Positions 2,626 through 47,575 of a DNA stretch of 64,000 nucleotides are shown piece after piece; within the stretch, counting starts at the first letter, position 1, and each line of letters opens with the position of its first letter. The stretch covers positions 15,775,095-15,839,094 of the forward strand of contig NC_063160.1 in NCBI RefSeq assembly GCF_020921035.1, written 5' to 3'. Under the pieces are notes generated by a model. The model was not told where the DNA came from and searched no databases. It worked only from the letters and a program-made list of their open reading frames with translations. The translations under genes and the position numbers were made by a program. Origin of the DNA: Rhodamnia argentea. Taxonomy: Eukaryota; Streptophyta; Magnoliopsida; Myrtales; Myrtaceae.

Positions 2626-3930
2626 CAAGAATTGGATCCAAATTAGGAAGCATTCTCTAACTTGGAAACCACGTAAATTAGGAAAGCTATTCAAAATAAG
2701 ATACCAACTTGAATAAGGAAACTATCCTTTTCAAGCTCAAACTCGAGACATATTTTCAAGAATTGGATCCAAACTAGGAAATCTACTCTAACTAGCAAAA
2801 TCTACTTAAGTTAGGAAAGCTATTCAAAATAAGAAACCTACTTGAATTAGGAAACTCTCCTATTCCGACTCAAACTCGAGACACATTTTCAAGAATTAGA
2901 TCCAAACTAGGAAAGCTATTCAAAATAAGAATCCTACTTGAATAAGGAAATTATCCTTTTGAGGCTCAAACTCAAGACATGTTTTCAAGAATTGGATCTA
3001 AAGTAGGAAATCTACTCTAACTAGGAAACCTACTTAAATTAGAAAAGTTATTCAAAGTAAGAAATCTACTTGAACTAGGAAACTGTCTTTTTCGGGCTCA
3101 AACTCGATACACATTTTCAAGAATTACATCCAAACTAGGAAACCTACTTAAATTAAGAAAGCTATTTAAAAGAAGAAGCCTACTTGAATTACTTTCGGGC
3201 TCAAACTCTAGACATATTTTCAAGAATTGTATCCAAATTAGGAAACCTACTCTCGCTAGCAAAATCTACTTAAATTAGGATAGCTATTCAAAATACGAAA
3301 TCTACTTTAATTAGGAAACTGTCCTTTTCGGGCTCAAACTCGAGACACGTTTTCAAGAATTGGATCCAAACTAGGAAACCTATTTAAATTAGGAAAGCTA
3401 TTCAAAATAAGATATTTACTTGAATAAGGAAAATGTCCTTTTCGGGCTCAAACTCGAGAGATATTTTTAAAAATTGTATCCAAACTAAAAAATCTATTCT
3501 AACTAGGAAACCTGCTAAAGTTAGGAAAGTTATTCAAAGTAAGAAATCTACTTGAATTGGGAAACTATCCTTTTCCGGCTCAAACTCAAGACATATTTTC
3601 AAGAATTGGATCCAAACTAGGAAACCTACTTAAATTAGGAAAGCTAATCGGAAGAAGAAACCCACTTGAATTATTTTCGGGCTCAAACTCAAGACATGTT
3701 CAAGAATTGAATCCAAATTAGGAAACCTACTTAAATTAGGAAAGTTATTCAAAATAAGAAACCTACTTGAATTAGGAAATTGCCCTTTTCCGGTTTAAAC
3801 TCGATACACACTTTCAAGAATTGGATCCAAACTAGGAAACCTACTTAAATTAGGAAAGCTATTCAAAATAAGAAACCTACTTGAATAAGGAAACTATTCT
3901 TTTCGGGCTTAAACTCGAGATATATTTTCA
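2626..3930. repeat. Minisatellite of about 11 units upstream of CYP85A
   Basis: The phrase CAAGAATTGGATCCAAACTA recurs near 2626, 2757, 2890, 2986, 3118, 3221, 3354, 3468 (degenerate), 3600, 3700 and 3814. Steps are about 131, 133, 96, 132, 103, 133, 114, 132, 100 and 114 bases. Each unit carries inner repeats of AGGAAACCTACTT or AGGAAAGCTATTC and ends in TTTTCGGGCTCAAACTCGAG. Long units carry more of the inner blocks than short ones. The array begins about 200 bases above the TATA box. Confidence 0.9.
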
Positions 3931-27958: not shown

Positions 27959-28829
27959 TTTTATGGCCCCAAGTGATTATCTTTTCCTTAACTGCAACTT
28001 AGCAGTGTTTCTATTTCAGATGTTGACTTCGTAGATACCATAAAATGAATAATTTATGTTTGATCTTTCCAAGACGCCTGATTTTCAGCCAAAAAAATGA
28101 TTCTTCGGAACACAGATCTAGGCAAAGCTTCTTATTCAGCACAATGCCAGATGATAATTAATGTTTCCCAAGGGTTCCTTTACCGGAACTGCAAGCAAAT
28201 TTCTGGACTGGAGATCAAATCAATGCAAGCTTTCATCTTATTTTAGTTCCCCCGTAAGATGGGCAAGGTAGCAACGTTGACAATCCGGCACCGGTACAGA
28301 AAACTTGCAACAGGATGTTCCCAAGAAACCTTGAGACACATGCATTGTCCCCCGATATTAGAAACCAGGAGGCACCTGAAATGGAAGTTTCAGACAAAAT
28401 CAAGAGCCGGTGAACCACTTGAGTTCGGGGAAGCAACTGGAATGATTCCTCGGTCTGAAAATACAAAGCCCTTCTATTGGTCGAAGCATTATTTTAAGCA
28501 TAGCACAGGATCAAAGACGAGCAGAAAGGAGTCTATACAAAACTCTTCATCATTTTCATTTCATAGCCAATATCTCACCGCCGCTGCACCAAAAAAAAAA
28601 AAAAAAAACACGACACATTGCTCTTCTTTCAGAAATGGGCAGGTAAAGTAAAAATATGCATGGGTCATCTATCCTAGGAGATGACAGAATGCACATCCGT
28701 CTTCCATCTGGATTATCTATATTCATTTGGTCCAAAACCCATTCGCAACTCTCTCAAAATTGCTTGCACATTTACTGTCAGGGACAGCATAAATATGGAG
28801 CTGTCTAAACCTTTACATGCTTTCCAGTC
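27959..28829. other. Spacer: methyltransferase promoter side and 3' region of the next gene
   Basis: Both neighbours are on the minus strand, so this 870-base gap should hold the 3' UTR of the C9orf85-like gene (about 28680-28829) and the upstream region of the methyltransferase gene. A poly-A run lies at 28591-28609. No clear TATA box was identified. Confidence 0.4.
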
Positions 28830-30400
28830 TTATTCCTCATCATCAGTGTTGTCTTCCTCCGTGTTGTCCTCCACTTCCTCCTCACCCTCCACTTCTTCTT
28901 CCTTGTTACCACTACCGGCTTTGCCCTCCTGGCGCGATCTGGCATAACCCTCAAGTGATGAAGAGGGGAATATATCTCCAACCTTGTTTGCTTTCTCAGT
29001 TGCAGATTTCCCCGAATTATTGTCATTTGACTTGTTCATCTGTTAAAGGGGTAAAAGAAAACATCACTGAGGATGGTTTGGAAAGAGAGAAGAAGAGCGC
29101 AGGGGGGGGGGGGTGGTGGGCGGGGTGGGACGATGGGAAAGGACAAGCAAGTGTAAAAGGAACAGAATACAGTATCAGTCTAACCCCAAAGACCCAATTA
29201 AGAAATTTGACAATTTCGAATCCACTCTTAAGTAGGCAATGATATGGACTATTCCTAATAGTTGCAAGCCAATACAAGGAGCATGCCAGAAGACATTTCA
29301 AGCAATGCCTCCTAAATGCAGCGTGAAGCCACAATAATTGCCAAAAGAAGTCGGCTAGGGAAACTTACAGCACGAAGTAGAGTTCTTCTATCCCTTTCTC
29401 GAGCATTCTTAATTGCCTGTAAAAAATGGCATTTATCTCTTTAGAAGTTAAAGTTGATTGGGGAAAAAACAGTCCTCATCTTAACTTAAAATAAAAGTGC
29501 GAAAGGTTCTCTTGGGCCTCGAACAAGAAATGAAAAGGATTTCGAAAACCAACCTCCTCGAGCGCTTTTTGCTCTGCTTCCAATTCGGAAGAGTCTCTGA
29601 AGGAACATAGAAAACAAATTCAGTTCCATTTCAAAGAGAGCGAAGCTCGAAAAGCAAAACCCAATCCTCAACTACCTGCCAACTAAACTGTCGACTCGGC
29701 AACGACACTTAGCACACACATTCTGCTCCTTGGCACATCCTAAATCAGCATGAAACCTCCATGAATGCAAGTAAAACAACGCAACCTTTCCATATCGAAT
29801 AAAAGTCACTGACGAACAATTTTGAAGAAGACCAACAAGCTGGCGAACCGATGGCCGTTCAAGTTTGAAGAAACTCGAGCAACGCACACAAAGAGAGGTG
29901 AAACTAACCAGAGCAAAGATTGTGGTAAGCTTGACGAACGGCCCTCCTAGAACACTTCTGGCTACAACAACATAGAGGGAATCACCAATGAACAACTGTA
30001 CTACTTGGAGCACCAATTTGAACGCAGAACCAGCAAATGAGCACAAGCAAACATGCCAAAGGAAACAATTTTTACCACTTAGCAGGTTCAACGAGGGGCT
30101 TATACTTGCCGTAACGGCGTTTCCACTCGATCTGCTCTCTACATCGAGCGCAAACTCCAGTTATCTCGGAGTACGGCCGGAACCTCCCTCCAACTTCCTA
30201 AATCCACAGCCGGTAATCAAGTTAAGTCTCCCCTCTTTCGATTCAATTGCTTAGGGATTCGAACGGTGCGAATCAGATAATCGATTGAACTAGGGTTCAC
30301 GAATTTTGGGGGGTTTTACCGTTTCGTTGATTTTGACGCCGGCGTTGGGCTTCCAGGCGTAGGCGTTCTGGTGCTTGGGCGGGCCACGCCGGCTGCTCAT
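28830..30400 (-). CDS. C9orf85-like protein with DUF2039 and four CxxC motifs
   Basis: Seven exons on the minus strand: 30320-30400, 30076-30197, 29909-29961, 29676-29739, 29554-29596, 29369-29416 and 28830-29039. All borders are GT-AG and the pieces join in frame to 206 residues. The protein begins MSSRRGPPKHQNAYAWKPNA, then EVGGRFRPYSEITG; CxxC pairs occur at 43/46, 68/71, 84/87 and 94/97, enough for two zinc sites. After these comes a charged helix (RDSSELEAEQKALEE, AIKNARERDRRTLLRA) and an acidic tail ending EEDNTDDEE. This is the arrangement of the conserved eukaryotic C9orf85 family; its molecular role is unknown. The first exon and promoter of this gene are copied twice downstream in the window (32672-32890, 39997-40215). 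Confidence 0.9.
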
Positions 30401-30590
30401 CTTCTATATGCCTTCGGCTCCTCCTCTTCTTCTTCTTCTTCAATGAGCTCGTTTTGCAGGGTGGCTCCAGTTAAGCGGTCGCTGCAGAGTGCATGGAGGC
30501 TGATGGAGCAAGTTAGGTCAAGTATATGTTTTATGCACATTAATAATTCATAAAACATATTATTTTACTTATATTAATTTCGATGATCGT
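30371..30590 (-). promoter_or_regulatory. Promoter and start of the C9orf85-like gene (source of captured copies)
   Basis: On the minus strand the sequence runs from upstream AT-rich DNA through a purine-rich (GAA/GGA)n tract and GGCATATAGAAG directly to the ATG at 30400. The block from about 30371 to 30590 is repeated at 32672-32890 and 39997-40215 with small changes in the trinucleotide tract, which defines its extent. Confidence 0.6.
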
Positions 30591-32470
30591 GATTAATCCT
30601 CTAATAGCAAACGGAGCTTAGGAACTCCTTTTTAATGACTGAAGGTTTGATCGAGTCGAATCGTGTTAACGTAATTTAGTGTCCGAAATTTCTGAAATAC
30701 GAGGTCGAGGTCTAACTCAAACTCAGGTATGGATAGTCAATGCTACATTTAATCGTTAAAATATTCAAGTCGAACTTTATTTGATATGAATTCTCGAGTT
30801 AATGACAAATCATTGCTCTAAGTAAAGTAGACTACTGTTTGCTAAACACAAAAAAAAAAAAAAAAAGAAGAAGAGTAAACTGTTATTTTAATTGAGTTTA
30901 TGAGTAGGACTACTATATCCAAACTCGATTCGAACTTGATAAGAATGTATACAATACTTGACAAGATCGGCTCAAATAGCTCATAAGTTGCTCTCATCGT
31001 TTTGTAAATCTAGTGGTACGAATAACCTTCGTAGCTGTGCTGCTTGTGCACTACATCGATTATCCATGATTACTCCCTAAATGCGTCCCGTTTCTACACT
31101 TAGAGGTGTCAATGGGCTGGGTCGGGCCAAATCTCATATAGACTTGATCCGGCCCGAAACCAAACAATGCCAAGCTCGGGCCGGCTCCGGCCGACTCGAT
31201 ACTCGAATGATATACGTCTAAGATATTCGATCCGGGTCCAGTCCGGTCGAGATTTTTTTTTATAATAATCTTCTATGAAAAGACAAACAACATTGATCGG
31301 GATTTGCAAAAATAGAAGACTAATTCTACATGTTGGGGTCATTTGATAGGAGCGAAAGACAATTGAAATGTCATAATCACGTAGATTATCACTCGAGCTA
31401 TGCTTCTAATCATCACATGATCAACTCTTCAACAAAACAAAACTGTAAAATCAAAACCCATTTTCAAAAACTAAATGCCCACGAAAAAAGGAAAAAAAAT
31501 TTGAAAAAAAAAATCAATCAAAGAAACGACTTTCGCGACCTCGGAAGGAAGGCAGTAGAGGTTATGACATGAAATCGAAATAATTCAATTACATACGACC
31601 GTTGGCATTGAAAAGAAATGGATTAATACTATGAAAAGCTTTAAATTAATATATTTGTGACAAATTTACTTTTGGTACACCACATAGTAGTTGGCGGATG
31701 TATCAATTTAGGATTTTGACCTTCCACTTGTCACAAGTGTACCAGTTTAGGATTCTTGGTGATATTAACCAAATTTAATGGAAACTAATGTGGGGTAAAA
31801 TTTATCACAAGTGTAATAATTTGAGGTTATTAATGGTCAAAAAATTAATTTGAGGTAAAATTATCACATGTATACCAATTATTTATCACAGGTGTGTCAA
31901 TTTGGGTGTTTTTTGTGATATTAATATTCGATTTTTTGCATGTAAAGTTGATAGGATTTAAAAGTGAGATTGAGATGGGCACGTGAACAAACAGACCCAT
32001 CCGAAGAAGTACCAAGAAAGTTGAAGTCGGGTTAGGAGAAACTTTTTGTGGCTCGAAAAGTTGTATTTCTATCTAAAAGTTGGTTTGTTTCGCGGAAAAT
32101 ATTGTTGGAGCGTGGTTCATATTCTCTATCGATAGGAAATCACGGATATCTATAATAGCTATTAAACTCTTTTTTGCATGTAATTGAGTAATGTAATAGA
32201 GAGGTGTAAAGTGCTAATTATAGTGGAATCATTTCTTGAATGTAACTCTAGTTTAAGGGAGAACTAAGATAACATTGTATCTCGATTTTTCTTTCTTACT
32301 TTTACGCTTGATTTCGTTATGGTTGTGCACCGAATCCTAAAAAATACGAAATTTCTGAAAAATATTTTTTGGAAAGTTATTTTTCAGGAAAATAATAAGA
32401 TTTTCCTGTATTTAGTTGAAATCTGAAGGTGAACTAAAAAATATTTTACGTTGTTTAATGAACTGGGGTC

Positions 32471-32890
32471 TCAAGCCCGAATCTCCAATTCCGGGGCACG
32501 AGTACGAGCATTGGTCTTAGGTCCATCGAAATCGAGCCCGAGAACTCGGTGCCCGTGCCCGCTCCCTTGTGACAACCTGATTTTCGTATGTTTGTCTAAC
32601 GAGTAAAACGGATTATGTAATGAAGTTTTGTTGAGAATGTGAAATTTTTTGATGCTGAGTGAAGTACAGCTTTGATGCTTGGGCGGGCCAAGCCGGCTGC
32701 TCATCTTCTATATGCCTTCGGCTCCTCCTCTTCCTCTTCTTCTTCTTCTTCAATGAGCTCGTTTTGCAGGGTGGTTCTAGTTAAGCGGTTGCTACACAGT
32801 GCATGGAGGCTGACGAAGCATTTTAGGTCAAGTATATGTTTTACGCACATCAATAATTCATAAAACATATTATTTGACTTATATTAATTT
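32471..32890 (-). pseudogene. Captured promoter and first codons of the C9orf85-like gene, copy A
   Basis: The block 32672-32890 matches 30371-30590, including the ATG (now 32704) and the first codons MSSRLGPPKHQ (source: MSSRRGPPKHQ). After codon 11 the match ends and the frame runs into unrelated DNA for 77 codons, stopping at 32471. The rest of the gene is absent. The trinucleotide tract upstream has one or two extra units. If the captured promoter works, it would transcribe leftwards through R2 and R1; no evidence of expression is available. Confidence 0.7.
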
Positions 32891-33867
32891 CGAGACGTGG
32901 TTCATGCTTCCCATCAACAGGAAAGCACGGGGTTTCGGACTATGAATAGTTATTGTTATAAACTTTTTCTTTCACTTGTAATTGAAGAATGTGATAAGAG
33001 GTACGATATGCTAATTATAGTGGAATTCTCTGCACGACATAGCCCTAATATAGCGTGAATCAGGATACATTTTGTGTTGATTTTTCTTTCTTAGTTTACG
33101 CTTTATTTCATTATAATTGTTTGTCAAATTCTAACAGCATTGAGCTCTCCAAGTGCGGTTCCGCAGGAGAGGGCCCCTGTCAACTGATAGCAAAGGAAGA
33201 GGGCCTTCGTCGAATTGAGTCGCATGGCGACGTTGGCCAGATCCTTTTCAGTACCGACTAAGGAGTACGGAGGGAGGGACCAAAAGAGCTCTTAAAGATG
33301 ATAAGCCTCTGTTCGTGCATGTGTGGATATGAATAGAGGACGGTGAGCCTCGCGCTCCATCATCCTATCGTTCAAGAAAAAATAAAAAAGATAAATGAAT
33401 TTACATCATATTAATAAGAATTCTATTAGCATAATAATTTTTGGGTGACCGTAAGAACGATAGTCTATTGTGACCCACAAATTCTTAAAAGTGTGGCTCC
33501 CACAATAATTTTTAATTAATTATTAATTGTATTTTTATGGCCAAAAAAAAAAAAAAAATAGACTGTTCGCATAATAGCCGTCCAAAGATTATTACATAAG
33601 CATTTGTCGTGACAAAACTGCAGTTAATGTACAATTTGAACTTACTTTTTAGGAAAATTGCTCCTTAAATCCTAAACCATATGTGAGACGTGCAATCTGC
33701 CAATTTAATCGAGTTTTAAAATTTTCAATTGATTCGATAAAGTCTTGGAACTTTGTTTAACAAATGAAATTAAGCCCTAAACCGCATATCATAATTGTAA
33801 TTTAAGGATGCTATGCGGGTAATTTTAGGTGTTGTTCATTGAAATGACTTTGATTGCACTTTTTCAC

Positions 33868-34646
33868 GGAAAGTCGTCCGGAAAGTCATAAACATATTGT
33901 ATGACGGCCAATTTAGTCATAAACTTTTCGGTTGCGTGAATTTAGTTCTAAATTTTTTGATGATTTGCCAATTTAGTCCTAAACATTTCAATTGTGTCAA
34001 TATAATCATAACCCTTTCGATGATTTTCTAATTTAGTCATAAATATTTTAACGATTTACAAATGAAAATTGTTGAAGTGGAAAACTTTTGTAATTTTTCT
34101 TTTTAATTTCCAAATTTTTTTCTTTTTCTTTTCTTTTCTCCCTTTTTCCCTCTATTTAGTCCCAGTCGATGGCCGCTCTCACCCAAGGCTAGCGAGGGTA
34201 GCGGTCACCTAAGGCAAATGATCTCCACCGACCATCGATGAGGCTCGGTGGAGGAAAAAAAAGGGAAAAAAAATAAAAAGAAAGAAAGAAAGAAAGAAAG
34301 AAAAAGAAAGAGGTAAAAAAAAAGAAGTGACTCAGAATTTCTTAACAAATTGTGAAAATTATGCAAGTCCGCGCCGACCATCTTAACTAGACCTTCATGC
34401 CAACGCTTTTCCGATCAAAATTGGCCCGAAAGACTAAGTTGACAAATTATTAAAAGGTTTATGGCAAAAATGGACCATGGTCTAAATGTTTATGACACAA
34501 ATGTCGCAATTGAAAGATTTATGACTAAATTGGCTGCCGTCAAATAAGTTTAGGACAGAATAGACATAATTAAAAATTTATGACAGAATTAGCCGTTGTA
34601 CATAGGTTTATGAATTTTTGGACAAATTTCATCACTTTTTTTTTAA
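33868..34646. mobile_element. Long-TIR Mutator-like element inside duplication copy 1
   Basis: Arms carry the blocks AGTCATAAACATATTG, CCAATTTAGTCATAAAC and their inverted forms (AGGTTTATG, GACTAAATTGGC). A GC-rich core at 34165-34255 (CTCACCCAAGGCTAGCGAGG) sits between AT-rich spacers and an AAAG repeat. The same element lies at 41208-41978 in copy 2, so it was inserted before the duplication. Confidence 0.6.
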
Positions 34647-35378
34647 ATATGAATTAATTGAATCAATTGAACTATTTTAAAACTTGATTACTTTTTGCAG
34701 GCAAGATGTCGAATTTCCGACACACTTTTCCATACTAATTTTGAAAACACAAAGTTTGCATTTCCATGTGAAGAACTCACAAGAACTTCTTGGATTCGTG
34801 GCTAGGGCGCTTCAGTCCAAAACAACAGTACCCCCCCGCACATGGCTTCAGACCATCCACGATAACCCACGAGACTCGGAAGCAGACACGATTTTGAGGG
34901 CCCTCTTTTTCGGCAAAGAACTTTTGCGATTTGGATGTTTCTTTCGAGCCTGTTCTTGCCATTCGTCGACATGAAAGCCGAGCCCCAGCCCCAACCCCAA
35001 CCATGTCGGCAGGCTGAAGGTGTGCTTTGATTTGAATGTAGCAGATCATATGTCATGTTCAAATCAGATCGACTCGGAGTGATCTTAGGGCTAATCTGAT
35101 AATTTAACAATAACTATAGCTAAATACGTGATAATGATATATAGATTTATTATTGAGATCGTATTATTCCTTACAATTATAGTGGAAGTATTTCCCTAAA
35201 AAGTGAGAAATGAGGACGAAAGAAACCTCTGCAAAGTGACCTCTTGGGTAGCCCCGTGACCTTTGTCCGAACGCCTGTGCCCCTATTGCTATGTCTGGCC
35301 AGTCCATTGAATAAAGACGTGCAACAAGCAGCCAGAGAGTCACTTATCACCTACTCTTCGTTGAGAGAGAGAGAATAC

Positions 35379-35768
35379 ATGGAAGTCAATAATTGCGGGA
35401 AGGTTCGTTTCTCCCTCGCGTGGTGGTGGTGCCTGCTCGCAGCCGCGGCTGTAGTAGCTCTGATCAGCTGTGGCGGAGCGAGGGCCGCTTTCGAAGCCGG
35501 TAACGCCACCACTCCGAGGCGGTGCCACGGGGGCGAGTGCCTCATCGCTTACCGGCAACCGGAGGTGGAGCTGATGGCGGTGCTGGACCCGGAGCAGGCC
35601 CTGGTCAGCATGGTGGCGGGACTCAAACCTGGAAAGGCCGTGGGAAGTTCCGGGAGAGGCAGCAATCCCGGCAATTGTGGCCGCGGAGCGCCGGGACGGT
35701 ACACGCCATGCGTTCCCGACAGAAATCCCGGCCCTCGCTACAGCCCTTATTATCCCCGTAGGGCGTAA
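35379..35768 (+). CDS. Small secreted RALF-like peptide precursor, copy 1
   Basis: 129 residues, one exon, ATG just after a short GA tract in the leader. A signal peptide covers about residues 1-36 (FSLAWWWCLLAAAAVVALIS). The pro-region CHGGECLIAYRQPEVELMAV followed by LDPEQAL resembles the CNG-x-x-EC...E-MDSE block of RALF precursors. The tail NCGRGAPGRYTPCVPDRNPG resembles the C-G-R-G...Y-x-x-C-x-P start of divergent RALFs (RALFL32-like). Only four cysteines remain in the predicted secreted part (49, 54, 100, 111); the last two cysteines of a RALF are replaced by tyrosines (YSPYY), and the YISY receptor motif is absent. RALFs act outside the cell on FERONIA-type kinases (family knowledge). 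Family call is moderate; secretion is well supported. Confidence 0.65.
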   Translation: MEVNNCGKVRFSLAWWWCLLAAAAVVALISCGGARAAFEAGNATTPRRCHGGECLIAYRQPEVELMAVLDPEQALVSMVAGLKPGKAVGSSGRGSNPGNCGRGAPGRYTPCVPDRNPGPRYSPYYPRRA

Positions 35769-37009
35769 GACCCATGGGATTTTGGGGAAATGCTGTTTAA
35801 TTTGTCGATGTCATCTGGTGGTTTTTGTTTTCAGAGATATTGTCATCATCATGTGATTGCTTTTCGAATTATTCCGCAACTGGAGGCTTTACAGCTTCTA
35901 CCTTTGGAATGTTACTGTTTGTTTACTGTGTTATATACCATATTCTCTCTCTCCCTCTCTTCGCGAGAAATTATTTGATGAACGTGATGTATACTAAATC
36001 GAATCTGAACCATCGAAATAGACGATTTTCGCCTCTATTTTGGCGGCGCCTGATTAGGAGGTCGGCCTGGGTGTCACGCGAGGGAGAAACGAACCTTCCC
36101 GCAATTATGAGGTCTAACGTAGTTTAGTGTCCGAAATTTCTGAAATATGAGGTCTAACTCGAACTCAAGTATGGATAGTCAATGCTATATTTAATCGTTA
36201 AAATATTCGAGTCCAACTTTATTTGATTTGAATTCTTGAGTTAATGACAAATCATTTCTCTAAGTAAAGTAGACTACTGTTTGCTAAACACACACAAAAA
36301 AAAAAAAGTAAACTTTTGTTTTAATTGAGTTTACTAGTAGGACTACTATATCCAAACTCGATTCGAACTTGATAAGAATGTATACAATACTTGACAAGAT
36401 CGGCTCAAATAGCTCATAAGTTGCTCTCATCGTTTTGTAAATCTAGTGGTACGAATAACCTTCGTAGCCGCGTTACTTGTACACTACATCGATTGTCCAT
36501 AATTACTCACTAAATGCGTCTCGTCTCTGCACTTAAAGGTGTCAACGAGCCGGGTCAAGCCGAATCTCATATAGGCTTAATCCGGCTCGAAATCAAATAA
36601 TGCCAAGTTCAGCCTGGCTCGGGCCGACTCGATACTTTAATCATATACGTCCAAGATATTCAGTTTGGGTCGGGTCTGATTTGGTTGAGATTTTTTTTTT
36701 TATAATAATCTTTTGTGAAAAGACAAACAATATTGATCAGAATTTGCAAAACTAGAAGATTAATTCTACATGTTGGGGTCGTCAGATAGGAGCGAAAGAC
36801 TATTGAAATATCATAATCACATAGATTATCATCTGAACTATGCTTCTAATCATCACGTGACCAACTCTTCAACAAAAGAAAACTGTAAAATCAAAACCCA
36901 TTTTCAAAACTAAATGCCCACGAAAAAAGGAAAATAAAGAAAATTAAAAAAAAAATTCAATCAAAGAAACGACTTTCACAGCCTCAGAAGGAAGGCAGTA
37001 GAGGTTATG

Positions 37010-37740
37010 CGTAAATCACGAATTCTCATCCATAAGCGCAAATAGCTCATCTCTTTCATCACCGGCAACTGTTCAAAACATAATGGAAAGTCGTAAACTC
37101 GAAGAAAAATACTTCACACCCAAAGCCCGTAAGAGACCCAGGAGAGCTTTGCTAAGATTTATAAAAACCAAAGAAATTACGAAGGGAAAATGAAGATCAA
37201 TTGGCCTCATAGAGAAGACTAGATATGTCCGCACTATTAGATTCAATCATGGGCCATCTGCAATCAAATTCACCAACCAGAGCAAAGAAATAAACTTTTT
37301 TTTACCAGAATCTCAGGAACAAGAGAAAAGAAGAAAGAAAAATCGAAGCTTGGTGTTTCTGTTTTGGGGGGAAAAGGGACTCAGAATATGGGTGGTGATA
37401 TTTCAGGATGGTCGGCAAGGCCCCAATCGGACCCAGTTACGACGAACGAGACCTCTCACGATACAATCGTCACCGTCCCCGAAAAACCATTTTTTTCCTT
37501 TCAATCTGATCCATTTGAAAACAAGAAAACGATGGGCATCAGATGACGCAACCCTAATCGGGAAACAGAAATTGGAAGCACGGAAGGAGAACCCTCGAGA
37601 GAGATGAAGCAGGGAGAGATCTGAGAGAGGTGAACAGCGACGGGGAAGGGGGGAGATGGTGGGGTTTGGGGTTTCGGTTCGTGCGACTTTGCTTATAAAT
37701 AGGAAATTTTGGGGACTAGGGTTTCTTCTGAATAGGACTC
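37010..37740 (-). promoter_or_regulatory. Orphan promoter and leader without a visible gene
   Basis: The minus strand has CCTATTTATAAGC (TATA at 37693-37702), then after about 30 bases a pyrimidine-rich leader (CACCATCTCCCCCCTTCCCC, CTCTCTCAGATCTC) typical of plant transcription starts. No ORF longer than a few tens of codons follows before the boundary with R1' near 37010. It looks like the 5' end of a gene cut off by the duplication; a non-coding transcript is the alternative. Confidence 0.45.
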
Positions 37741-38371
37741 GGCCGAGAAAGGGGGGGACCGTCGGAAGTGGCCGGCATTGAGGGATGGCGCTGTAGGCGT
37801 CCGGCGTGCACTCGGGCGCAAGAAAGTGACGGAATCTCGGTGGACCTCCGCGGATTGGGCGTCGCGAGGAGGGAGACGTCGCGGTGAAGAAGATGATGAG
37901 CAGTAGTAGGGTTGGGCCTGGGTTATTTGAGTCTTCAATTGGCCCGTCTTCTTTTCATTCCCGGGCCTGTACTTTATTTTTCGGGCCGCAATGGTACCGG
38001 CCCTCATTGAAACAGTACCAAGTTCCGGCCCGAAAATTAAGGGAATTCTCTGTCCGGGTCGGGTCGGGTCGGGCCGGCGCGGGCCTTTTATCTTATACCC
38101 ACGAGCTGATTTAGTTTTGAAGTTTCCTCATCGTGCAGCTAATTCCAAAACTTGCAAAAAAATATCATGCAATTGAGTACTTTCATAACATCCGTAGATT
38201 TCAATTTCATTAGATAAACGTACGGTCCATTCAGATAGGTTTTCTTCTTACAAATGACGTGGAATCACAATTGCTCGATCCCTCGAGCTCGATGCATCCA
38301 TCCATGTCTCTGACGATCGATCATTAAATCCTTTGGATCATGTGGAAGGTCCAAAGGCGGAAGTGGGGACG

Positions 38372-38737
38372 TCAACAAGAACAAGCTCCGTTGCGGCAAT
38401 ACGGGCTGCAGTGTGGCGTCGGGGAACGTGGCGGCGTGCACGGCGTGTACCTTTCGTTCTGCACATCACGGCCACAGCCGGCGATATTCCGGTACGGGGA
38501 AGATCCAGCCCCAGAGACCGCCAGGCTAGCGCCGAGTATGCCCGGATCTGATATCGCCTCCAGCTCGAGTTGCAGGTCGGCTATGCGACGGCCGGCAGCG
38601 TCGACTTTGGACAGCGGCGGAGCGGCGGCGGAGACATTGCACCCTAACGACCACGTCGCGGCTCGACATGGGAAGGAGAGGGCGAGGATGGAGAGAAGCG
38701 AGAGGAGGAGGAGAGCCTTGTTCAAGGGGAGCTCCAT
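38372..38737 (-). CDS. Divergent secreted cysteine-rich RALF-like peptide precursor
   Basis: 121 residues on the minus strand; start chosen at 38737 because MELPLNKALLLLSLLSILAL is a clean signal peptide, while the frame upstream to 38890 is not. The tail GCGRDVQNERYTPCTPPRSP then HCSPYCRNGACSC aligns with the tails of the genes at 35379 and 43049 (CGR...RYT-C-P) but keeps extra cysteines where those have tyrosines. Seven cysteines follow the signal peptide (33, 88, 100, 110, 114, 119, 121). The pro-region has GRRIADLQLELEAISDPG, a possible RRxL-like processing site of RALFs. It lies inverted between the two tandem copies. Alternatives: another cysteine-rich peptide class. Confidence 0.6.
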   Translation of the reverse strand: MELPLNKALLLLSLLSILALSFPCRAATWSLGCNVSAAAPPLSKVDAAGRRIADLQLELEAISDPGILGASLAVSGAGSSPYRNIAGCGRDVQNERYTPCTPPRSPTPHCSPYCRNGACSC

Positions 38738-39939
38738 GCGAGAGGATGTCAAGCCAGCGGCTGTGGGTTGATTGGGGGAGGTATGAAACGCAGGCCACCG
38801 ACAGCTTGCTGGAAACGATGGGATTGGACTGCAAAACGGATTCACGGACTTTAAAAAGGATTCACGGGTCGTGCCAACCCGGGCCCCCATGAGCGACCTA
38901 GAATTAGATTAAATCAAAATAATTCATTTACATACGACCGCCGGCGTCGAAAAGAAATGGATTAATACTATGAAAAGCTTTAAATTAATATATTTGTGAC
39001 AAATTTACCCTTAGCACATCACATAATAGTTGACGGATGTGTCAATTTAGGATTTTGACCTTCCATTTGTCACAAGTATACGGGTTTAAGATTGTTGGTG
39101 ATATTAACCAAATTTAATAGAAACTAATGTGGGGTAAAATTTATCACAAGTATAATAATTTGAGGTTATTAATGGTCAAAAAATTAGTTTGAGGTAAATT
39201 TATCGCATGTATACAAATTATTTATCACAGGTGTGTCAACTTGGGTATTTTTGGTGATATTAATATTCGATTTTTTGTATGTAAAGTTGATAGGATTTAA
39301 AAGTGAGATTGAGATGGGCACGTGAACAAACAGACCCATCCGAAGAAGTACCAAGAAAGTTGAAGTCGGGTTAGGAGAAACTTTTTGTGGCTCAAAAAGT
39401 TGTATTTCTATCTAAAGGTTGGTTTGTTTCGTGGAAAATATTATTGGAGCGTGGTTCATGTTCTCTATCGATAGGAAAGCATGGATATCTATAATAGCTA
39501 CTAAACTCTTTTTGGCATGTAATAGAGAGGTGTGAAGTGCGAACTATAATGGAATCATATACTGAATGTAACCCTAGTTTAAGGGGGAATTAAGATAAAC
39601 CTTGTATCTTGATTTTTCTTTCTTGCTTTTACACTTGATTTCGTTATGGGTGTGCACTGAATCCTAACAAATACGAAATTTCTGAAAAATATTTTTCGAA
39701 AAGTTATTTTTCAGGAAAATAATAAGATTTTTCCGTATTTAGTTGAAATCTGAAGGTGAACTGGAAAATATTTTATGTTGTTTAATGAACCGAGGTCTCA
39801 AGCCCGAATCTCCGACTCCCGGGCACAAGTACGAGCAGTGGTCTTAGGTCCATCGAAACCGAGCCCGAGAACTCGGCGCCCGTCCTCGCTCCCTTGTGAT
39901 AGCCTGATTTTCGTATGTCTGTCTAACGAGTAAAACGGA

Positions 39940-40215
39940 TTATGTAATGAAGTTTTGTTGAGAATGTGAGATTATCTGATGCTGAGTGAAGTACATCTTT
40001 GATGCTTGGGCGGGCCACGCCGGCTGCTCATCTTCTATATGCCTTCGGTTCCTCCTCTTCCTCTTCCTCTTCCTCTTCTTCTTCTTCAATGAGCTCGTTT
40101 TGCAGGATGGTTCCAGTTAAGCGGTCGCTACACAATGCATGGAGGCTGACGAAGCATTTTAGGTCAAGTATATGTTTTATGCACATCAATAATTTATAAA
40201 ACATATTATTTTACT
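39940..40215 (-). pseudogene. Captured promoter and first codons of the C9orf85-like gene, copy B
   Basis: The block 39997-40215 again matches 30371-30590; the ATG is at 40032 with MSSRRGPPKHQ, identical to the source over 11 residues. The frame then leaves the gene and stops after 19 codons. The upstream (GAA/GGA)n tract is longer than in the source. The second half of the gene is absent. Confidence 0.7.
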
Positions 40216-41207
40216 TATATTAATTTCAAGACTTGATTCATATTCCCCATCGTTAGGAAAGCACGAGATTCGGAGACTATGAATAGTTATTGTTATAAAT
40301 TATCTCTTTCACGTGTAATTGAAGGATGGGATAAGAGGTACGATGTGCTAATTATAGTGGAATCCTCTGCATGACGTAGTCCTAATTTAACGTGAATCAG
40401 GATACATTTTATTTCGCTTTTTCTTTCTTATTTTACGTTTTACTTCGTTATAATTATGTGTCAGATTCTAACAGCATTGAGCTCTCCATGTGGGGTTCCG
40501 CTGGAGAGGGCCAATGTCAACAGATAGCAAAGGAAGAGAGCCTTCGTCGAATTGAGTCGCATGGCGACTTTGGCCAGATGCTTTTCAGTGCTGACTAAGG
40601 AGTACGGAGGGAGGGACCAAAAGAGCTCTTAGAGATGACAAGCCTCTGTTCGTGCATGTGTGGTTATGAATAGAGGACGGTGAGCCTCGCGCTCCATCAT
40701 CCTATCGTTCAAGAAAAAATAAAAAAGATAAATGAATTTACATCATATTAATAAGAATTCTATTAGCATAATAATTTTTGGGTGACTGTAAGAATGACAG
40801 TCTATTGTGACCCACAAATTCTTAAAAATGTAGCTCCCACAATAATTTGTAATTAATTATTAATTATATTTTTGTCACAAATAAATAGACTGTTAGCATA
40901 ATAGCCGTCCAAAGATTGTTACATAACCAATTCCCTAATGATAAACACGAGCATTTGTCGCAACGAAACTGCAGTTAATTTACAATTTGAACTTACTTTT
41001 TGGGCAAATTGCACCTTAAATCCTAAACCATATGTGAGACGTGCAATCTCCCAATTTAATCGAGTTTTAAAATTTTCAATTGATTCAATAAAGTCTTGGA
41101 ACTTTGTTTAACAAATGAAATTAAGCCCTAAACCACGTATCATAATTGTAATTTAAGGATGCCATGCGGGTAATTTTAGGTATTGTTCATTGAAATGACT
41201 TTGATTG

Positions 41208-41978
41208 CACTTTTTCGCGGAAAGTCATCCAGAGAGTCATAAACATATTGTACAACGGCCAATTTAGTCATAAATTTTTCGGTTGCGTAAATTTAGTTCT
41301 AAATTTTTTGACGATTTGCCAATTTAGTCCTAAACATTTCAATTGTGTCAATATAGTCATAACCCTTTTGATGATTTTCTAATTTAGTCATAAATATTTT
41401 AAGGATTTACAAATGAAAATTGCTGTAGTGGAAAACTTTTGCAATTTTTCTTTTTAATTTCTGAATTCTTTTTCTTTTTCTTTTCTCCATTTTTCCCTCT
41501 GTCGAGTCCCAGTCGACAGCCGTTCTCACCCAAGGCTAGCCAGGGTAGCGGTCACCTGAGATAAACGATCTCCACCGGCCATCGATGAGGCTCGGCGGAG
41601 AAAAAAATAAAAAGAAAGAAAGAAAGAAAAAGAAAGAGGTAAAAAAAAAGAAGTAATTCAGAATTTCTTAAAAAATTGTGAAAATTATGCACGTCTGCGC
41701 CTACCATCTTGACTAGACTATCATGCCATTGCTTTTCCAACCGAAATTGGCCGGAAGAACTAAGTTGACAAATTATTAAAAGGTTTATGGCAAAAATTGA
41801 TCATGGTCCAAATGTTTATGATACAAATGTCACAATTGAAAGGTTTAGGACTAAACTAGCTGCCGTAAAATGAGTTTAGGACTGAATAGATATAATTAAA
41901 AAGTTTATGACTGAATTAGCCGTTGTACATAGGTTTGTGAATTTTTGGACAAATTTCATCACTTTTTTTTTTTAAATA
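41208..41978. mobile_element. Long-TIR Mutator-like element inside duplication copy 2
   Basis: Sister of 33868-34646, with the same arms and GC-rich core (about 41505-41600). It differs by scattered substitutions and a shorter AAAG repeat. Confidence 0.6.
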
Positions 41979-43009
41979 TGACTTAATTGAATCAATTGAA
42001 CTATTTTAAAACTTGATTACTTTTTGTAGGCAAGATGTCGAATTTCCGATACACTTTTCCATACTAATTTTGAAGACATAAAGTTTGCATTTCCATGTGA
42101 AGAACTCACAAGAACTTCTTAGATTCGTGGCTAGTGCGCCTAAGTCCAAAACAACAGTACCCCCGCACATGGCTTCAGGCCATCCACGCTAACCCACGAG
42201 GCTCGCAAGCAGACACGATTTTGAGGGCCCTCTTTTTCGGCAAAGAACTTTTGCGATTTGGATGTTTCTTTTGAGCCCCTTTTTGCGATTCGTCGACGTG
42301 AAAGCCAAGCCCCAACCCCAACCACGTCGGCCGGCTGAAGGTGCTCTTTGATTTGAATGTAGCAGATCATATGTCGTGTTCAAATCGGATCGACTCAGAG
42401 TGATCTTAGGGCTTAAGAATGTCGTCCTATGGGTGAAGTCTTATTACATGTACATGGATGAGACGCTTTGTGTGAATCGATATAGACCAGTCAAATTACA
42501 AATTTAAGTCTCTCGTAGTGACAAAATGGAAAAACGAGTCCCGAAAAGTTGACACCGGGGTAGGGAAAAAACGTATTGTGGCTTAAAAGGTCGTATTTCT
42601 ATCTAAACCTTAATGTAATATGATATTAACAGCTATAATAGCTAATATATGTGTATTTTTGTCTTTGGTACTCCAAGAGTGAACATGTGGGAAATCCAAC
42701 TTCCATTTACCTTCTATATAGTTCTTTTTTTTTTTTAATAACGGAAGCAACTAATCTGATAATTTGATAATAACGACAGCTAAATACATGATAATGATAT
42801 ATAAATTTATGGCTAAGGTTGTATTATTTTTTGCAGTTGTCGTGGAAGTATTTCCTATAAAGAGGATGAAAGAAACCTCCGCAAAGTGACATGTAGGGTG
42901 GCCCCGTGACCTATGTCCGGACGCCTGTCCCACTACTGCTGTGTCTGGCCAGTCCATTGAATAAAGACCTGCAACAAGTAGCCAGAGAGTCAACCATCAC
43001 CTACTCTTC

Positions 43010-43012
<3 letters not shown>

Positions 43013-43044
<32 letters not shown>
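43013..43044. repeat. Expanded (GA)n tract in the leader of the second peptide gene
   Basis: About 16 GA units end a few bases before the ATG at 43049. The sister gene at 35379 has only about five units at the same place. Confidence 0.85.
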
Positions 43045-43047
<3 letters not shown>

Positions 43048-43048
43048 C

Positions 43049-43432
43049 ATGGCTGTCAATAATTCCGGGAAGGTTCGTTTCTCCCTCGCGTGGTGGTCCC
43101 TGCTCGCAACCGCGGCTGTAGTAGCTCTGATCAGCTGTCGGGGAGCGAGGGCCGCTTTGGAAGCCGGCAACGCCACCACTCCGCGGCGGTGCCACGGGGG
43201 CGAGTGCCTCATCGCTTACCGGCAACCGGAGGTGGAGCTGATGGCGGTGCTGGACCCGGAGCAGGCCCTGGTCAGCATGGTGGCGGCCCTCAAACCTGGA
43301 GAGGCCGTGGGAAGTTCCGGGAGTCAGGGAAACCCCGCCGATTGCGGCCGCACAGGGCCCGGACGGTACACATCATGCGTTCCCGAGAGCAATTTGGACC
43401 CTCACTACAACCCTTATCCCCGTAAGGCGTAA
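43049..43432 (+). CDS. Small secreted RALF-like peptide precursor, copy 2
   Basis: 127 residues, one exon, tandem sister of the gene at 35379. It has the same signal peptide pattern, CHGGECLIAYRQPEVELMAV block and LDPEQALVSMVAALKPGEAV, but the tail has diverged: DCGRTGPGRYTSCVPESNLD, ending HYNPYPRKA. As in its sister the last two cysteines of a canonical RALF are missing. The frame is intact, so two full-length copies have been kept. Differences cluster after residue 80, in the expected mature region, while the pro-region is nearly identical. Confidence 0.65.
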   Translation: MAVNNSGKVRFSLAWWSLLATAAVVALISCRGARAALEAGNATTPRRCHGGECLIAYRQPEVELMAVLDPEQALVSMVAALKPGEAVGSSGSQGNPADCGRTGPGRYTSCVPESNLDPHYNPYPRKA

Positions 43433-43683
43433 GACCCATGGGATTTTGGGGAAATGCTGGTCAATTTGTCGATATCATTTGGTGGTTTTTGTTTTCAGAG
43501 ATATTGTCATCATCATGTGATTGCTTTTCGAATTATCCCGCAACTGGAGGCTTTACAGCTTCTTCCTTTGGAATGTTATTGTTTGTTCGCTGTGTTATAT
43601 ACCAGATTCTCTCTCTCTCTTTTCGCGAGAAATTATTCGATGAACGTGATGTATACTAAATCGAATCTGAACCATCGAAGTAG

Positions 43684-44226
43684 ACGATTTTCGCCTCTAT
43701 TTTGGACGGTGCCTGATTAGGAGGTCGGCCGACAAGGATCTCAAAACTTCCGACGAAAGGAACCCCCCTCTCACTCTATGAAGTTAGATAGGGCATCTCA
43801 TGGTAGTCGGTGATACCGACAACCTTAGTATATCCATCGGTATTGCTTTCTCAAGGGAGTATTGCTTGGGCGTACGTGCTAAGAACGGTCCGTTAGATTC
43901 ATTTACTACAATTGACGTGACAAATCGTAAATGAGTTTTAAATAAGGTCACGTCTTAACAAGGGCCCCCTTGTGGATATGCGAAAACGTTTGCCGACACT
44001 CCCATCCGAGCAGTGAGCAAAATTCCACATCGTACCTAAAGTTCACATGGCCCAAAGTTCTCGTTTCCCATTTACTCATCGAGCTGCTGCTTTTACTCTC
44101 CCTTTTTTGGTGATTATTTTCAGGAAAATCAATGATAAAGAAGAGGTTAGTAGTGCGTGGAGACATAAGGGACCATCGACCCTGCTAAAGAAGATGAGAA
44201 GAGAATCTAATCTGTATGTCTTAAAG
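43684..44226. repeat. S repeat unit, first copy
   Basis: Runs from TTTTCGCCTCTATTTTGG through CAAAACTTCCGACGAAAGGA and CACATCGTACCTAAAGTTCA to AGAATCTAATCTG. It is repeated at 45300-45855 and its tail again at 52671-52720. Several phrases (CATCCGAGCAGTGAGCAAAA) look like degenerate element sequence; no gene is present. Confidence 0.7.
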
Positions 44227-45299: not shown

Positions 45300-47575
45300 C
45301 AATTTTTACCTCTATGTTGGCAGCGCCCGATTAGAAGGTCGGCTGACGAGGATCTCAAAACTTCCGACGAAAGGACCTCTCTCTCTCTCTATGAAGTTAG
45401 TAGATAGGGTATCTCATGGTAGTCCCGTGACATCGACAACCTTAGTATGTCAATTGGTATTGCTTTCTCAAGGGAGTATTGCTTGCGAGTTCGTGCTAAG
45501 AATGGTCCGTCGGATTCATTTACTGTAACTGTCGTGACAAATCGTAAATGGGTTTTAAATAAGGTCACGTTTTAACAATGTCCGCCTTGGAGATATGCAA
45601 AAAACATTTGCCGACACTCCCATCCGAACCGTGAGCAAAATTCCACATCGTACCTAAAGTTCACATGGCCCAAAGTTCTCTTTTACCATTGCTTATCAAG
45701 ATGCTGCTTTTACTTTCCCTTTTTTGGTGATTATTTTCAGGAAAATCAATGATAACGAACGGGTTAGTGCGTGGAGACATGCGGGACCGTCGACCCTACT
45801 AAAGAAGATGAGAAGAGAATCTAATCTGCACGTCTTAAAGAGACACAAAGGAGAGAACTTTTTTTTTTTTTTTGGCCAGAACAAAGGAGAGAACTTTATT
45901 GTCTCGTCTTTGGTGTTACGCAGTGGGATGAGGACCCCGTGCTTATCTGTCTGACAATCTAGTTTGACCTACCCGACAAATTCTTTAATCGTGCTATCGC
46001 GATGTGTTAAAAGGAACAACAACTATGATTTATAGATGGTCATTGGGAAAATCCTCAGAGATATTAGACAACATATACTAAAGTTTGGCCTCAAATCTTC
46101 GGTTTGAAAAAAAATTTACCAAAAAAGTCATAAATCTATTGTAATTGTATTAATTTAACCCTAAACTTTTTTTCAATTTAATCCTAAACTTTTTTACATT
46201 TTCGCCAATTCAATCCATTTAATCGGCCAAGACTGATGTGAACTTTTTTAAGTAATTTTTTGAATTTTTTTTATTTTTTTTATCTTTTCTTTTCTTTATT
46301 TTTTTCTCACCCAACCCCAAGAGCAGGGCTGGGACGCCCTCACTGGCCGCTGGAGAGGGTGTCACGGCCCTCAAACCCGGACAAAGTGAAGGCAACGAGG
46401 CGATCGTGGCAGTAACCCAATCGAAGTGAGGGCCGTGACGCCCTCGCTAGCCTAAGTGTTAGGTGAAAAAAAAAAACTACATAAAAGAAAAGAAAAAAAT
46501 CGTAAAATTTTTAATAAAATTACTAAAATATTATTAAAAAGTACACGTCAGCATCGATAGTATCATGTCGGTGCCGGTCGGCTAAATGAACCGAATTGAC
46601 TTAAATTAAGAAGGTTTAGAATTGACTTGGCAAAAAAAAAAATTAAGACTAAATTGATACAATTGCAATATGTTTATGACTTTTTTGGTAATTTTTAAAA
46701 AAAGGATGATCGGAAGAAAAATAACTGGTTCCACTCTTCATGTTTTGCAAAGGGATAAAATAATTAGAGATGCCTAAAGTGATGATATTTCCTTATTACC
46801 CATGTGTATTCATTCGTTCATGGTAAAATGACCATTTCTTTCTTCCAAAATAAATGTAGTATTAAAATGTTTGAATATTAAATGAAGCCTTGATTATCAA
46901 TTTATTCTTTTAAAATAATTGATCTCGATCTCACAAAATTTCACACGATATCAAAGGTGAAGACTCTAAGTTTAAATCTTTTCAGACTTCTAGTTTGACA
47001 CTTTTACTATATATTTTCACGCTTTAGTTTCAAGTTGGACTACTTTCATCTGTGGGCATGAGCTTTTCGAACAATTGTGGCGATATAAAGCGTCACGTCA
47101 TTATTCTTGATTGCCATGTTGTTCACTTCCACTCTCAATTTCACTGCATATTTTTTTTCTTTCCTTCGATATCTTCCTCTCTTTCGGACACGGGCTGTTT
47201 GTTCGACCCCATAGAAGAAAATGACGTGCGACTTTAGTTCCATTTTTCTGCCTTGAAATTGACTTCACCGATTAATGGACCTAACTATATGCTTTATTCC
47301 CATTTTGTGTCAATGAACCATTGGATGTCCGTCAGTCTTGATCGAACTGAAACTCTTCTTGATATATTAGTTAATCTTTCAATTTCATTTTGATATGGGA
47401 AGTGACGGACAATTGAGAGCAATCTTTCAATTCGATCTCGTTCGAGACTTTCTCAAATTGAATTAATCGTCCGAATCTGATGATGAGATGCATCGGGACT
47501 TGAATGTATAACACAGAAACACCGTTTTATATTGGGAACTCGCCGATTTCCATCTTCGATCAATGACGGGGAAAT
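45300..47575. repeat. S and T repeat unit, copy 1
   Basis: S (45300-45855) is followed by T, which starts near GTTACGCAGTGGGATGAGGA and contains ATTGGGAAAATCC, AATGAAGCCTTGATTATCAA, GATAAAGCGTCACGTCA (approximately, near 47085) and TATTGGGAACTCGCC. T recurs at 52720-55125 and 55765-57330. An element (46111-46697) interrupts this copy. No gene. Confidence 0.7.
46111..46697. mobile_element. Long-TIR Mutator-like element inside T copy 1
   Basis: Left AAAATTTACCAAAAAAGTCA and right inverted AAAAATTACCAAAAAAGTCA, followed on both sides by TAAA(T/C)(C/A)TATTG(T/C)AATTGTAT. A GC-rich core (46313-46455) contains GAGGGCCGTGACGCCCTCGC and similar words. The equivalent position in T copies 2 and 3 is empty. 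Confidence 0.65.

Follow-up and report, generated by a model that had tools for sequence, protein, structure and literature searches.

A 64-kb stretch of the Rhodamnia argentea genome (C11:15775095-15839094, hereafter the window, whose own positions are used throughout) contains an intact C9orf85/DUF2039-like gene and, upstream of it, two copies of its start, one in each of two tandem units. The copies have common joints with truncated flanking repeats, a filler lies between the units, one unit has suffered a loss, and a small nucleolar RNA (snoRNA) sequence in that unit has decayed. From this structure we infer the mechanism, namely repair synthesis, as well as when the events occurred and that the copies are inert: a templated repair patch, then a tandem duplication and then a 1.9-kb loss would probably account for the locus, and the copies are most likely inert.

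The start of a C9orf85-like gene recurs twice within 10 kb

The donor gene, the source block and its two copies are as follows.
28830-30400, minus strand: C9orf85/DUF2039-like gene, donor of the block; intact, seven exons, 205 amino acids
30374-30583, minus strand: source block; 210 bp, of which 183 bp precede the ATG and the rest is nine codons
32678-32893, minus strand: copy 1; 216 bp, differing from the source at 13 of 210 bases aligned without gaps
40005-40229, minus strand: copy 2; 225 bp, differing from the source at 13 of 210 bases aligned without gaps

The donor gene has six introns, all GT-AG, and an open reading frame (ORF) throughout. Its protein matches PF10217 (DUF2039) with 98.1 bits against a cutoff of 27 (E=3.5e-28), which places it in this family; we take DUF2039 to be the family of human C9orf85. 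Whole-assembly searches, covering 346.7 Mb in 74 contigs, revealed no second copy of the gene: a protein search returned seven matches, six of them the gene itself and the seventh with E=0.96, and a DNA search with the gene body (28700-30373) matched only itself.

In a BLASTN search with 30374-30583, the match at 32678-32893 scored 289 bits and that at 40005-40227 scored 254 bits, compared to 30.7 bits for the best match in 20 shuffles of the remaining window that preserved neighbouring base pairs. The original prediction, which held that the gene start recurs twice and proposed aligning the three blocks, is borne out, with a match far beyond chance. Its coordinates needed adjustment, the third block having been placed 8-14 bp off; the edges listed above were set by the three-way alignment and the extent of the flanking repeat. 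In the whole assembly the block has three matches, all inside the window, and we accordingly rejected mobile amplification of the block.

Gaps excluded, each copy is 93.8% identical to the source; between the two copies themselves there are 10 differences in 216 aligned bases. The three-way alignment contains 192 identical columns, differences unique to the gene (8), copy 1 (5) and copy 2 (5), and 15 gap columns located in a TCCTCT-like leader stretch that is expanded in the copies. Provided that gene and copies changed equally fast, this site pattern suggests a short stem before the duplication, the capture being only slightly older than the duplication.

The copied coding part amounts to nine codons and not to the 11 originally proposed. 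Codons 10-11 (CAT CAA) only look conserved because the left-hand repeat, as judged from the related locus L010, runs through TTTGA and supplies these bases. Selection on codons 10-11 was rejected as the apparent synonymous changes are repeat sequence. The proposal that the ATG and its codon context are kept in both copies holds for the ATG, which is intact in each, and for codons 1-9 of copy 2, which are identical to the source; copy 1 departs from it at codon 5, where CGT has become CTT (Arg to Leu).

Within the donor block, 30524-30560 forms a perfect inverted repeat with 12-bp arms and a 13-bp loop. It is the sole such repeat in the window (perfect arm of 12, loop of 3-20), and none occurred in five single-base shuffles of the window, a weak control. 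One arm is altered in each copy. The repeat could be a fragile site or a palindrome with a regulatory role.

The copies lie in two tandem units with a filler at their junction

The tandem units and the peptide genes associated with them are listed below.
30667-31566: segment A of unit 1; 88.2% identical to 36115-37009 in BLASTN, 91.3% with gaps excluded
31569-36067: segment B of unit 1, holding copy 1 and peptide gene 1
36068-36114: junction filler between the units, 47 bp
36115-37009: segment A' of unit 2, counterpart of A
38908-43730: segment B' of unit 2, holding copy 2 and peptide gene 2
35379-35768, plus strand: peptide gene 1; 129 amino acids, signal-peptide-like start (by eye)
43049-43432, plus strand: peptide gene 2; 127 amino acids
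38372-38737, minus strand: peptide gene 3; 121 amino acids from an inner Met chosen as start, leftward of copy 2 and in the same orientation

Segments B and B' differ at 341 of 4422 ungapped aligned bases, and each copy of the block is situated in a tandem unit ending with a peptide ORF (35379-35768 and 43049-43432), in agreement with the original prediction. Two independent captures were rejected as copies 1 and 2 have joints and flanks in common. The alignments indicate that the block was captured once and that a tandem duplication spanning about 7 kb then produced copy 2. The earlier description of a promoter captured next to a secreted-peptide gene and multiplied stands with regard to the copying of a gene's 5' end beside a secreted-peptide-like gene and its later doubling, with the multiplication reduced to one capture and one segmental duplication.

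Within the filler, the bases at 36075-36108 reproduce the start of peptide gene 1 (35389-35422) exactly but in inverted orientation (34/34 bases, E=3.6e-13). This 34-bp sequence occurs once per orientation in the window and has one mismatch to peptide gene 2. The exact inverted filler provides independent evidence for a break at this locus that was patched from nearby DNA. A 540-bp repeat occurs as a pair at 43687-44226 and 45302-45840 (87.7%). As its first 44 bp correspond to the right edge of both units, the duplication breakpoint lies inside it.

That the tandem structure is an assembly artefact, produced by mis-joined haplotypes or repeats, is barely credible: 7.7% of aligned bases differ between the units, in addition to length differences of 339 bp and 1.9 kb, a filler is present at their junction, and both are contained in one long contig at positions beyond 15.8 Mb.

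The block joins two damaged repeats, as expected for a repair patch

Three repeats are found at or near copy 1.
32568-32677, plus strand: left joint, the first 105-110 bp of a TGTGAYARCC repeat starting TGTGAYARCCTGATTTTCG, ending where copy 1 starts
32894-33136, plus strand: right joint, a copia-like long terminal repeat (LTR2) directly adjoining copy 1
32103-32341, plus strand: LTR1, a second LTR of the LTR2 family, identified by alignment and repeat family

The block is flanked by two unrelated repeats. With regard to Pack-MULE or Helitron capture, which would leave terminal inverted repeats with a target-site duplication, or Helitron termini, around the fragment, the observation is that the flanks consist of these two repeats. 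The TGTGAYARCCTGATTTTCG repeat start is also present on C8 and C9 (loci L010 and L013); L010 matches the left repeat up to the joint and then continues into different sequence, while the match of L013 extends over about 73 bp. On the other side, some 5-8 bases are missing from the inferred 5' end of LTR2, and it is here that the block is joined on. The LTR2 family search returned 585 candidates, 40 of which were scored, two of these being the present locus. A probe near the LTR start matched 7 of 18 loci, with TGTTRGG before the common stretch in three, a shorter TTGGG in that place in three, and neither in one. The usual LTR end in the family is CTAACA; at locus L021, TGGTATC, which we take to be the usual copia primer-binding start, follows immediately after a matched stretch that itself stops 14 bases short of this end. 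Inspection of the block by eye identified no matching target-site duplication. With one stretch of gene DNA spanning two damaged repeats, the block has the appearance of a repair patch; its donor is identifiable and still in place, and flanking sequence has been lost at the joined ends, both features of a filler patch.

In the sequence of events that we favor, a break about 2.1 kb from the gene would have been filled by a templated copy of about 210 bp in direct orientation, a patch linking a truncated repeat on one side with the 5' edge of a copia-like LTR on the other. Soon after, a stretch of about 7 kb upstream of the donor gene, comprising a snoRNA cluster, peptide gene 3, repeats including the patch, and peptide gene 1, would have been tandemly duplicated, with the unit junction itself filled by the 34-bp inverted copy of a peptide-gene start. 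Finally, 1.9 kb would have been lost from unit 1. The locus would then record two patched junctions in compact and legible form, and would exemplify how repair can set a gene start together with its ATG next to other genes with no transposon as carrier.

Several points weigh against this origin. The unpatched site was not seen, and the eight gene-only differences are unpolarised, as they come from a single genome with no outgroup. The 210 bp exceed the maize filler sizes given in passages of PMC2686159 (1-131 bp). Truncation of the left repeat is judged from one locus (L010), and two matches on C5 also reach the joint. Furthermore, the LTR edge is so near one joint that a retroelement may have taken part, and tandem duplication combined with deletion would produce an identical structure.

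In the last of these possibilities, the 2.3 kb between 30374 and about 32677 would have been duplicated in tandem, and a deletion from the far end of the block to LTR2 would have followed. The short distance and direct orientation are compatible with it, but two events are required and no sign of an intermediate was seen. In addition, LTR1 and LTR2 are not duplicates, being about 76% alike and followed by different sequences, and we regard this two-step rearrangement as unlikely.

Slightly less likely again is that template switching brought the gene start into an LTR element, which then carried it here. The block does lie within about 5-8 bases of the LTR 5' edge, and LTR1 lies some 550 bp leftward of LTR2. 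However, 183 bp of the block precede the ATG, and it is antisense to the LTRs and occurs nowhere else in the assembly despite hundreds of LTR family candidates. LTR1 matches the LTR2 of unit 2 at 76% over 143 bp, compared to 94% for block and source, and by eye there is no primer-binding site after LTR1. The combination of transcript-derived sequence, matching LTRs, primer-binding site, polypurine tract and target-site duplication that would characterize gene capture by an LTR retrotransposon was not found, and LTR1 is probably a separate insertion.

A templated repair patch would have counterparts in known plant systems. Passages in PMC3445842 and PMC7935947 describe plant break repair by synthesis-dependent strand annealing in which gene fragments are copied as filler, and cite Wicker et al. 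2010 for filler copying that can accompany transposable-element insertion. Similar to the filler attributed there to Wicker et al. 2010, the present block would be a gene fragment copied in break repair, but it is very local (2.1 kb), promoter-side and later tandem-doubled. The maize p2/p1 chimeric gene, as described in part of PMC2686159, contains a 50-bp filler from two sites. It resembles the present locus in its filler from nearby sequence and its tandemly repeated setting, whereas the present locus has a patch of 210 bp and, apart from it, an inverted filler of 34 bp.

Unit 1 lacks 1.9 kb including the front of a snoRNA cluster

The features concerned are the following.
37010-38902: 1.9-kb segment of unit 2 without a unit 1 counterpart
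31334-31425, minus strand: orphan snR60 of unit 1, leftward of copy 1; 55.9 bits, Rfam cutoff 41
36774-36865, minus strand: snR60 of unit 2; 74.5 bits
36980-37067, minus strand: snoRNA U83 of unit 2, straddling the edge of A'; 57.9 bits
37377-37478, minus strand: third snoRNA of unit 2; 89.1 bits

The predicted cluster of unit 2 consists of three snoRNAs with AAACCCTA at 37724 and GGCCCA at 37918 on the minus strand. Part of PMC4660826 describes telo-box and site II promoters for plant polycistronic snoRNA genes, and the present cluster resembles these in combining C/D snoRNAs with an upstream AAACCCTA and a site II motif. A captured protein gene at 37010-37900 was also considered and was rejected in favor of the snoRNA cluster identified through Rfam.

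Comparison at the 37009/37010 edge gave 35 matches to related snoRNA loci, four of which reach the edge, the remainder matching parts only, without examination of the edge. All four continue across it, indicating that the 1.9 kb were lost from unit 1; an insertion into unit 2 was rejected on the same grounds. Unit 1 is consequently missing the promoter and front of the snoRNA cluster as well as the third peptide gene, and only the 3' part of its U83 is present (27.7 bits against a cutoff of 50). By-eye comparison of the unit 1 snR60 with five other copies revealed an altered box D and changes in a conserved stretch, while box C and one conserved stretch are intact and the score exceeds the Rfam cutoff. 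Judging by these changes the orphan snR60 is decaying. The paired clusters represent a natural comparison, one intact and the other promoterless and decaying.

The copied gene starts are most likely inert

Both copies face leftward, with the snoRNA cluster and peptide gene 3 ahead of copy 2 and the orphan snR60 ahead of copy 1. In line with the original suggestion of new leftward transcripts, they might be working promoters, with copy 2 feeding peptide gene 3 and the cluster and copy 1 reading toward snR60. Their aim at minus-strand genes, the intact ATG and the snR60 score and box C of unit 1 are in line with this idea, as is a divergence between the copies (10/216, 4.6%) below that of the rest of the unit (331/4206, 7.9%). 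This difference is however not significant (Fisher P=0.089), and 19% of sliding 216-base windows of the unit diverge as little as the block. ORFs fused to the copied start comprise 77 codons from copy 1 and 19 from copy 2 and are not conserved. The block is devoid of any promoter motif sought: the minus strand of 30374-30700 contains no TGGGCY/RGCCCA (site II) and no TATAWA, nor a AAACCCTA telo-box, which was searched in this orientation only. The path of copy 1 is repeat DNA (2306 candidates for 31569-32340), which plants usually silence. Rescue of the orphan snR60 by copy 1 was rejected due to the altered box D, against which stand the Rfam score and the retained box C and conserved stretch. 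Promoter activity of the copies is unlikely on these sequence grounds, and the arrangement with both copies working is very doubtful.

Even more doubtful is that the unit 2 patch by itself would act as an alternative promoter, transcripts from the copied housekeeping 5' end extending into the snoRNA cluster and peptide gene 3, which lie 1-3 kb downstream. If true, a promoter would have been relocated through break repair without a transposon, and active copies would more generally offer a testable case of such relocation. A literature search on promoter capture returned no match, which we do not take as absence from print.

Peptide genes and other features

Peptides 1 and 2 are 82% identical in their residues, while peptide 3 is a distant relative encoded on the opposite strand. 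A search of the assembly for these secreted-peptide-like ORFs matched the three and nothing else, the third with E=0.086. In Pfam none of the three reached the cutoff of any family, and a RALF label was considered but rejected as no RALF match was found for them in Pfam at E up to 10. A PDB sequence search with the peptide alignment likewise gave no match. The ratio of nonsynonymous to synonymous substitution rates (dN/dS) between peptide genes 1 and 2 is about 0.89. Sixteen of their 25 differing columns (gaps counted) are located from column 91 on and two in columns 41-90, a distribution indicating a conserved middle part and a fast-changing C-terminal part.

Elsewhere in the window, a divergent minisatellite-like array is present at 2626-3930, with units of about 96-133 bp and 18-bp subrepeats.
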